From an uncultured Thermoproteales archaeon (GTDB lineage: Archaea > Thermoproteota > Thermoprotei > Thermoproteales > Thermoproteaceae), in assembly GCA_938027595.1 (NCBI GenBank), contig CALJAK010000010.1, positions 1-51,678 on the forward strand: a stretch of DNA of 51,678 nucleotides. The letters are read 5' to 3'. Both the position numbers and the translations under genes were made by a program. Below the pieces are notes generated by a model, which saw only the letters and a list, made by a program, of their open reading frames with translations, had not been told where the DNA came from and made no database searches. Positions 10,916-17,961 of the stretch are shown here, one piece after another. Position 1 is the stretch's first letter, and every line of letters starts with the position of its first letter.

Positions 10916-11845
10916 GTGTTTGACCGCTTCGGCAGACCTTTTTTAAAAATGAGATATGTGATAAACGACGAATGTAACTACTTCTGTATATTTTGCCACT
11001 TCGAAGGTCAGAAGAGGCGTCAGGGCGTGACTCTCACCGCCGAGGATTACGACTTCGTCACCGGCGTATTTACAAAATTGGGTATTTCAGATTTCAAAAT
11101 CACCGGCGGGGAACCTCTGCTCAGGAGTGATGTTGGCAAGATTGCAGAAAGTATTTCAAAGTGGGGTGGTTCTGTCTCTATAACTACAAATGGTTATTTA
11201 CTGCGCAAGTGGTTACCTACGCTTAGGAAAGCTGGAGTTAGAAAAGTGAATATATCTCTACACACTCCAGACCCAGACAGATACGCAAAGATAACTGGCA
11301 CCACTCCAGAAGTGTATAGAGAAGTAGTGGAGGGGTTGCGCACGAGTAAAACACTCGGCATAGACGTCAAGATAAACGTGGTGGTTCTCAAAGGCATAAA
11401 CACCAACAGAGACACCGTGAGGAGATTCATAAATCTAGCTCTCGAAACACATGCCTCTCTACAATTCATAGAACTCATGCCAACGGGTTTGGGGCTGAAC
11501 GCCTTCAGTCAATATTACGAACCCATTGAGTCCATAGTGGAAGTGATTAAAGAGTTTGGAGCCAAGCCAGCCAGCCTCAGGCGGGAGTTGCACCTCAGAC
11601 CTATTTATACAGTGGCCGGCGTCGTTGTAGAACTCATAAAGAACTACAACAACCCCACTTTCTGCAGTGGCTGCACGACTATGAGACTCACAAGCGATGG
11701 CAAACTCAAGACTTGCATATATGCAGAGCCCTCGGTAGATCTAGCGCCCCACATAAAAAACAGAGATGTAGAAGGCGTAATACACACAATCAACGCAGCG
11801 CTACGCCAGAGAGAACCCAAATTCAAGTTTTACTCACCCTCGTAG
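10916..11845 (+). CDS. moaA: GTP 3',8-cyclase MoaA (molybdenum cofactor biosynthesis)
   Basis: 309 aa radical SAM enzyme that begins molybdopterin synthesis by rearranging GTP. The N-terminal cluster motif is CNYFCIFC (Cx3Cx2C), followed by KITGGEPLLR and ITTNGYLL. The second, substrate-binding cluster is the canonical Cx2Cx13C (CSGC, then Cys 14 residues later). The start is GTG 10916 with a TATA box about 23 nt upstream. One oddity: the C-terminal Gly-Gly tail often seen in MoaA is not evident (it ends KFYSPS). It fits with the MoaC-like gene at 17.2 kb and the convergent ModE-like regulator, which overlaps its 3' end by 16 nt. Confidence 0.93.
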   Translation: MFDRFGRPFLKMRYVINDECNYFCIFCHFEGQKRRQGVTLTAEDYDFVTGVFTKLGISDFKITGGEPLLRSDVGKIAESISKWGGSVSITTNGYLLRKWLPTLRKAGVRKVNISLHTPDPDRYAKITGTTPEVYREVVEGLRTSKTLGIDVKINVVVLKGINTNRDTVRRFINLALETHASLQFIELMPTGLGLNAFSQYYEPIESIVEVIKEFGAKPASLRRELHLRPIYTVAGVVVELIKNYNNPTFCSGCTTMRLTSDGKLKTCIYAEPSVDLAPHIKNRDVEGVIHTINAALRQREPKFKFYSPS

Positions 11846-12219
11846 TATGGGATCTCTTCCCCCCTCTCCACTTTCGTCTCTGTCAACAACTGGGCGAGTC
11901 TAGACTCCCAAACTTTCACCACTTTCTCTACTTCTGACTGCAATTCTTCATAGTACTTAACTAACAACTTACCCACTTCAGTGAGTTCGGTAGATCCCCT
12001 CTCTCTACCACCCCTCTTGGACTCCACTAGGGGGACGCCTAGAGCGTCCTCCAACTTCTTTATGTATGTCCATACAAATTTATATGAATATCCAACTTTT
12101 TTGGCAGCTGAAGCTATGGAGTTAGTCTCCTCTATAGCTTTGAGTATGTTGTAAACGCCGGGGCTGAGGATCTCCTGCCCGTCTTTATCCACCCAAATGC
12201 GGCTCTTTACCTTAACCAC
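11830..12219 (-). CDS. ModE-family winged-helix DNA-binding protein
   Basis: 129 aa. The N-terminal about 95 residues match the LysR/ModE-type winged helix: GVYNILKAIEETNSIASAAKKVGYSYKFVWTYIKKLEDALGVPLV then GGRERGSTELTEVGKLL, the typical ModE wing sequence. No C-terminal molybdate-binding TOBE domain is present, only a helical tail, so it may not sense molybdate itself. The start is GTG 12219 with attttaatatc about 22 nt upstream. It faces moaA tail to tail (16-nt overlap), which suggests but does not prove a role in molybdenum or tungsten metabolism. It follows enolase by 17 nt. Confidence 0.85.
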   Translation of the reverse strand: MVKVKSRIWVDKDGQEILSPGVYNILKAIEETNSIASAAKKVGYSYKFVWTYIKKLEDALGVPLVESKRGGRERGSTELTEVGKLLVKYYEELQSEVEKVVKVWESRLAQLLTETKVERGEEIPYYEGE

Positions 12220-16945: not shown

Positions 16946-17233
16946 ATGTCTTGCCCCACTTGTGGATCTAGAGAGTTAGTACTTCTCCCAAGTGGCGATT
17001 TTCTCTGCAAATCTTGTGGCCATAAGTGGCCCCTGCCCCGCGTGGACTACAGCTGGGCTGAGGTCGAGATAAAGAAAGCTAAACTCTTGGAGCGAGTAGA
17101 GGCAAACGATTGTAGAGAACTAGTGGCCCAACTCTCCCGCGAGATGGATGTGGAAAGCGCTAAAAAGTTAGCTACAAAAATTCTCATGTTGAGAAAGGGG
17201 AAGTTAACGCAGAGTGAGTATAAATGTCTATAG
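16946..17233 (+). CDS. Small zinc-ribbon protein of unknown function
   Basis: 95 aa. An N-terminal Cys4 ribbon (CPTCGS, then [11 protein letters not shown] about 15 residues on) resembles TFIIS/RNA-polymerase-type ribbons; the C-terminal half is helical and charged with no recognised family. ATG 16946 has cattttaaag about 24 nt upstream, in the end of fni. It overlaps the following MoaC-like gene by 10 nt, suggesting coupled translation. Possible roles are nucleic-acid or protein binding; nothing specific can be concluded. Confidence 0.8.
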
Positions 17234-17961
17234 TAGACATATCGCGGAAGCCAGATGTCTATAGATACGCCAGGGCGTCCGCCGAATTGGACGCAGTGCA
17301 CTGCGGCGCCTCGGTGGCTCAGAGAGCCGCTGTGAATGCCTATAGATACCTACCGTTTCTACACCCATTGCCATTGACGGCGGCTGCTGGCTGCAGCGGG
17401 GGGAGGCTGTGGGTAGAGGGCGTTACGCAGTGGCAAACCGGCGTGGAGATGGATGTGTTGTTTGGAGTTCTCGCTGGCGCCGTGGCGTCGGGGGCTGCTG
17501 AAGTCAGGAAGTTGAGAGTGGAGACTAAGGTGAAGGGTGTGGTGACTGAGCTAAAGCCAGCGGTTCTTGGAGACGTCCCGCTGGCGAGAAAGACCGGCGT
17601 TGCTGCGGCTGCCCGCGGCGAGTTGAAAATGAAGAACAGCCAAGTGGTCAAGAGTCCTGTGGAGAAGGGGCACCCCATATACGCAGCGCAAGCAGCGGCG
17701 GCGTTGAGTGTGAAGAGGTTGTGCGAATTGACTGGCGGCAGGTGTCCACATGTGCAATATTTCAAGATTGACATCGATGTGGCGGACGTGGTGGTGGCCA
17801 GCGTGGAGGTTAGGGCTAGAGACTTATCTCCCACTGCAGAAGCGCTCTTTGCGGCTGGCGTTGCGTTGTTGACTATTTGGGACATGGTGAAGAAGTTCGA
17901 GAAGGAGGATGGGCAGTATCCCCACACAGAAATATCTATAAAGACGTGGGGTTTGTCTTGA
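17224..17961 (+). CDS. moaC: MoaC-like cyclic pyranopterin monophosphate synthase, tandem-duplicated
   Basis: 245 aa, against about 160 for normal MoaC. The N-terminus [10 protein letters not shown] is the usual MoaC start. Copy 1 (about residues 1-105) has LHPLPL and TGVEMD, the His and Glu blocks of MoaC, but lacks the LTIYDM block and has Cys where the catalytic Lys of the KGD loop is expected. Copy 2 (about 125-245) begins again with a VEKGHP loop (Lys present) and ends with [11 protein letters not shown] (Asp and Lys present), but its HPL motif is degenerate (CPHVQYF) and GVEM is replaced by SPTAEAL. The two halves are complementary, as expected for a fused pseudo-heterodimer. It converts the MoaA product to cPMP if active. 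It overlaps the zinc-ribbon gene by 10 nt. Confidence 0.8.

Follow-up and report, generated by a model that had tools for sequence, protein, structure and literature searches.

A tandem MoaC fusion in Thermoproteales divides its active-site residues between two domains and may form a single composite site

MoaC, the cyclic pyranopterin monophosphate (cPMP) synthase, produces the first pterin on the route to the molybdenum/tungsten cofactor. In the window, the whole analyzed stretch of 51,678 nucleotides from an uncultured Thermoproteales archaeon, we have found a moaC gene that encodes two MoaC domains in one chain. Three-letter residue names with numbers refer to the E. coli MoaC sequence, and one-letter names to the 245-aa protein of the window. 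The features of the locus are as follows.

10916..11845, + strand: moaA (radical SAM GTP 3',8-cyclase), the expected maker of the MoaC substrate, 5.4 kb upstream of the fused moaC
11830..12219, - strand: LysR-type helix-turn-helix (HTH) protein, ModE-like by sequence reading, adjoining moaA
16946-17233: zinc-ribbon protein (TFIIB-type finger) of 95 aa, its gene sharing 10 bases with the start of the fused moaC, a pairing conserved in Pyrobaculum
17224..17961, + strand: fused tandem MoaC, 245 aa, by ORF, Pfam MoaC profile, AlphaFold2 model and genome search
17224..17538, + strand: N-terminal MoaC domain (aa 1-105), keeping D5, K9, R14, H47, T72-G-V-E75-M-D77, K102 and K104, without the Lys51 segment and the Asp128/Lys131 block
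17539..17601, + strand: interdomain linker (approximately aa 106-126), with low conservation and lower model confidence
17602..17958, + strand: C-terminal MoaC domain (aa 127-245), keeping K148, K164, E206, D220 and K223, without His77 (C174 instead), Glu112 and Lys147

Two MoaC domains in one chain

The sequence-only reading had described the ORF at 17224-17961 on the + strand as 245 aa long with two MoaC-like halves. The ORF is as it stated, and the MoaC profile recognizes both halves, not one half only. The full protein scores 62 bits against the Pfam MoaC model, above the cut-off of 27. Searched alone, residues 34-87 of the N-half match Pfam positions 50-110 (E 7e-5) and residues 122-228 of the C-half match positions 8-122 (E 1.6e-11). 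The NCBIfam MoaC models likewise match both halves, with scores far under their equivalog cut-offs for NF008999 (84.6 bits, cut-off 171) and for TIGR00581 (52.9 bits, cut-off 141.5). The closest solved sequences, those of Sulfolobus tokodaii (2ohd) and Pyrococcus horikoshii (2ekn), both match the C-half. A second, canonical MoaC was sought in the 96.5% complete source genome and none was found, leaving the fused copy as the sole MoaC detected there.

The predicted fold agrees with the profile matches. AlphaFold2 was run on the full chain with an alignment of 18 fusions, giving a confident model (mean pLDDT 92.1, pTM 0.92) of two MoaC-like repeats with the same order of strands (E) and helices (H). 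The N repeat reads E12-22 H29-37 E52-58 E61-70 H75-88 E93-104 and the C repeat E127-135 H139-143 H151-162 H166-170 E177-186 E190-198 H204-225 E236-242; the helix ahead of the Lys51 motif is missing from the N-copy, whose final helix is also shorter. In a Foldseek comparison of the full model with the PDB, hits 1-28 were all MoaC chains, the best of them aligning with a single domain at 1.4-1.8 A. When the N-half was modeled by itself (pLDDT 91.1), hits 1-28 were again MoaC chains throughout. Thus, as modeled, both the full protein and its N-half have the ferredoxin-like MoaC fold.

Active-site residues of the two copies

Both halves of 36 intact fusions were aligned with 79 canonical archaeal MoaC sequences. 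In the canonical proteins Lys21, Arg26, Lys51, Lys67, His77, Glu112, Met113, Asp128 and Lys131 are each present in 79/79, and Lys147 in 78/79. The fusions divide these residues between their domains. All 36 N-domains carry His77, Glu112 and Met113, and Asp17, Lys21 and Arg26 are present in the 29/29 that aligned in that region; Lys51 and Asp128 are absent, a single Lys scored at position 51 being read as a misplaced residue, and Lys131 occurs only in most copies of the Vulcanisaeta/Caldivirga/Thermocladium family (f3) and in genome G051. In the fusion alignments the N-domain VxxKxK strand (K102, K104) is invariant; aligned by hand, its two lysines fall on Lys147 and on the conserved Lys at the second position after it. 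The C-domains have Lys51, Lys67, Asp128 and Lys131 in 36/36 and neither Lys21 nor Lys147 in any (0/36). They also lack Glu112, save in the divergent protein L024, whose Glu may be 112 or 114, and keep His77 in 15/36, this residue being lost from the C-domain in Pyrobaculum. The codons for the key residues in the window, all on the + strand, are listed below.

17362..17364, + strand: codon of H47 (His77), invariant in N-domains
17446..17448, + strand: codon of E75 (Glu112), invariant in N-domains
17527..17529, + strand: codon of K102 (Lys147, VxxKxK strand), invariant in N-domains
17665..17667, + strand: codon of K148 (Lys51), invariant in C-domains and absent from N-domains
17881..17883, + strand: codon of D220 (Asp128), invariant in C-domains and absent from N-domains
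17890..17892, + strand: codon of K223 (Lys131), invariant in C-domains

In the 245-aa protein, Lys51, His77, Glu112, Asp128, Lys131 and Lys147 are each present in at least one copy; the six never occur together in one domain and are complete only in the sum of the two. Most of what had been read from the sequence alone was borne out: H47, E75 and D77 are kept in the N-copy and its Asp128/Lys131 block is lost, while the C-copy keeps K148, D220 and K223 with C174 in place of the His of the HPL motif and SPTAEAL in place of GVEM. The N-copy also keeps K102 and K104 of the Lys147 region. The proposal that the N-copy has a Cys where Lys51 would be was not supported. The helix-plus-KGD segment is shortened or deleted in Pyrobaculum and Thermoproteus N-copies, and thus C27 is a neighbor conserved mainly within Pyrobaculum rather than a clear substitution.

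The same partition recurs in 36 intact homologues that diverge by up to approximately 65% in sequence, which exceeds what chance would give. When 16 invariant or nearly invariant canonical positions were hand-aligned with the 245-aa protein, 9 were kept in the N-copy only, 5 in the C-copy only, 1 in both and 1 in neither. This complementary loss gives a one-sided Fisher p of 0.008, to be read with the caution that adjacent sites are not independent. The same per-protein test is not significant for the Vulcanisaeta/Caldivirga/Thermocladium-type fusions (p 0.4-0.85), because they have fewer losses and because an insertion puts the N-domain Lys147 strand out of register in the profile alignment. 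In these fusions the C-domain retains His77 and the N-domain Lys131, and the partition rests on fewer residues. Conservation across the clade is better evidence for the partition than the per-protein test.

Two cysteines, C167 and C174 (KRLC...CP; window 17722-17745), are invariant in the C-domains of 16/16 aligned fusions of the Pyrobaculum/Thermoproteus family. C174 occupies the vacated His77 position and C167 lies near; the pair may form a disulfide or have a new role.

Distribution and origin of the fusion

The fusion is a clade character of hot-spring archaea allied to Pyrobaculum. In the window's order, MoaC was found in 42/45 genomes and is a tandem fusion in 41 of the 42, a few of them broken by contig ends or frameshifts. 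The exception (G001), from another family of the order, has a single-domain MoaC of 157 aa. Fusions of the Pyrobaculum/Thermoproteus family (f1) are approximately 242-258 aa long with shortened copies. Those of f3 are mostly approximately 330 aa with both copies near full length, except in a divergent genus with fusions of approximately 275-295 aa. We considered whether a frameshift or an assembly error had joined the copies by accident, and rejected this because 41 genomes of the order, some of them complete, carry the same fusion. In one genome (G041) a one-base frameshift splits the fused moaC just before the C-domain VEKGDP motif (L032, 1480-2200), leaving frames of 187 aa and 115 aa, the second with no evident start codon; the shift could be an artifact of sequencing, or be real or programmed.

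Of 250 genomes sampled evenly across the phylum, 182 have MoaC. Among the matches listed, and leaving out G237 with its three matches, the sole fusion outside the order is a 294-aa protein of G051, a genome of the same class but a different order. This protein shows the same partition, and its gene lies against moaA (L145, 2649-4478). It may be an old inheritance combined with loss, or a transfer. G050, a sampled genome of that order, has a single-domain MoaC. Canonical MoaC matches inside longer ORFs, possibly other MoaC fusions, were seen in G045 (L137; 311 aa), G178 (310 aa), G251 (328 aa) and G083 (605 aa).

In a tree of both halves and canonical MoaC, the N-domains form one group (support 99) and the C-domains another (84), the halves from G051 included. 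The tree has few columns and several long branches, which makes its deep order unsure. The separate N and C groups can be explained by one duplication and fusion, pointing to a single ancient event. Across the fusions generally, Lys51 and Asp128 are lost from the N-domain and Glu112 and Lys147 from the C-domain; in the Pyrobaculum/Thermoproteus family His77 has also gone from the C-domain, and the entire Lys51 block and Asp128/Lys131 block from the N-domain.

Where dS is not saturated, dN/dS is 0.07-0.21 in both halves, indicating purifying selection. These values bear on the idea that the N-half, which has the weaker profile match of the two, is a decaying remnant and that the C-half alone matters. 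A remnant is hard to reconcile with 14 residues invariant in the N-half across 18 fusions and a dN/dS as low as that of the C-half, and a C-half acting alone would be without His77, Glu112 and Lys147. We rejected this explanation on the invariant residues and low dN/dS of the N-half, and consider it extremely unlikely.

A putative composite site and its pathway

The canonical MoaC dimer is one continuous eight-stranded sheet, and three dimers make up the hexamer (PMC3602415). When M. tuberculosis MoaC2 was superposed on GTP-bound T. thermophilus MoaC, the ligand contacts came from Lys62, Asp137 and Lys140 in one chain (A) and from His88 in the other (B) (PMC3602415). In our alignment the equivalent E. 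coli residues are Lys51, Asp128, Lys131 and His77. The C-domain of the fusion keeps Lys51, Asp128 and Lys131 and the N-domain keeps His77, the same split as that published between chains A and B, and thus one complete composite site is expected. The mirror-image site in Pyrobaculum has none of these four residues.

It is hypothesized that moaC was duplicated in tandem and then fused, that the two domains pack together like the subunits of a MoaC dimer, and that losses then became complementary between the fused copies. The C-domain would give Lys51, Asp128 and Lys131 (K148, D220, K223) and the N-domain His77, Glu112 and Lys147 (H47, E75, K102). By homology with the MoaC dimer these residues should converge on one site; from the residue partition we predict that Glu112 and Lys147 lie on the same side as His77. 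The joint site would turn the MoaA product, 3',8-cyclo-7,8-dihydro-GTP, into cPMP, and the mirror-image site, lacking these residues, would be dead. From the hexamer of three dimers we expect a trimer of fused chains, and the working particle would probably have three live sites versus six in the MoaC hexamer. A single fused chain thus probably replaces a two-subunit enzyme, with only one of its sites working. We consider it highly likely that the protein is such an asymmetric one-chain cPMP synthase, with one live composite site, one dead site, and its domains packed as in the MoaC dimer. The sequence-only reading had arrived at a pseudo-heterodimer with one good composite and one dead site, and the agreement with the published chain A/B split supports it by homology.

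The live site might instead be formed between chains, from an N-domain and the C-domain of the next chain, in a domain-swapped or head-to-tail assembly. The several interfaces of canonical MoaC, a trimer of dimers (PMC3602415), leave room for this, and the linker of approximately 20 residues could permit either arrangement. The single-chain pTM of 0.92, however, implies a fixed mutual position of the domains within one chain, and we regard a between-chain site as quite unlikely.

Genomic context connects the fused protein with the cofactor pathway. MoaE and molybdopterin oxidoreductases are encoded elsewhere in the source genome. The fused moaC adjoins the ModE-like HTH gene and moaA in Thermoproteus-type genomes and genus g3, and moaA lies beside or near it in f1g2, f1g3 and G051, in the last on the same strand. 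This linkage supports action of the fused MoaC right after MoaA. Pyrobaculum has a conserved cluster of ribosomal protein L2, an FMN-dependent dehydrogenase-family enzyme (by reading, type 2 IPP isomerase), the zinc ribbon, moaC and serine hydroxymethyltransferase.

The same context weighs on whether cPMP synthase activity has been lost in favor of another role, such as MoaA scaffolding or pterin binding. Each copy is without many MoaC-invariant residues, and the NCBIfam score is under the equivalog cut-off, as such a loss would allow. Yet in 36 proteins each copy retains the catalytic-type residues that its partner has lost, the fusion is the sole MoaC detected in a genome that also encodes MoaA, MoaE and molybdoenzymes, and moaA linkage is found in several lineages. 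Loss of activity is thus very unlikely. A different matter is whether the vacated pseudo-site of the fused MoaC was given a new job, e.g. as a pterin or oxyanion sensor, or as a dock at which MoaA hands over its unstable intermediate. We hold this to be unlikely; if true, a gain, rather than neutral complementary loss alone, would have maintained the fusion.

Canonical MoaC (E. coli; S. tokodaii 2ohd; P. horikoshii 2ekn) shares with the fused halves the predicted domain fold, the conserved residues once both halves are summed, and the MoaA pathway context. It differs in having one domain of approximately 150-160 aa, a full catalytic set per chain and a pair of identical sites in the dimer, whereas the fusion has two unequal domains in one chain and one complete site expected. 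The MoaC/MoaB, MoaC/MobA and MoaC/MOSC fusions of the NCBIfam models pair MoaC with a different enzyme, whereas the protein described here joins it to a further MoaC copy. Bimodular QueF of Vibrio cholerae and E. coli is likewise a tandem duplication, whose active-site elements are shared out over the two domains and come together at a site between them (PMC5372742). It is the nearest documented parallel, as an analogy of evolutionary route and not a relative; its fold and reaction differ. Open papers on MoaC with duplication or with Pyrobaculum yielded no description of the fusion, which does not prove novelty.

Cut-offs set on canonical MoaC miss this probably working version, a warning for annotation. 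A symmetric MoaC hides which side of the dimer supplies each residue unless mixed mutants are made; the fusion allows mutation of one side and tells which side must provide which residue to a single MoaC site. We regard the fused MoaC as a clear example from nature of how a homodimeric enzyme can become asymmetric when its gene is duplicated and fused and the copies lose complementary parts. Living relatives preserve intermediate stages, from near full-length copies with partial loss in Vulcanisaeta and Caldivirga to short copies with complete partition in Pyrobaculum.
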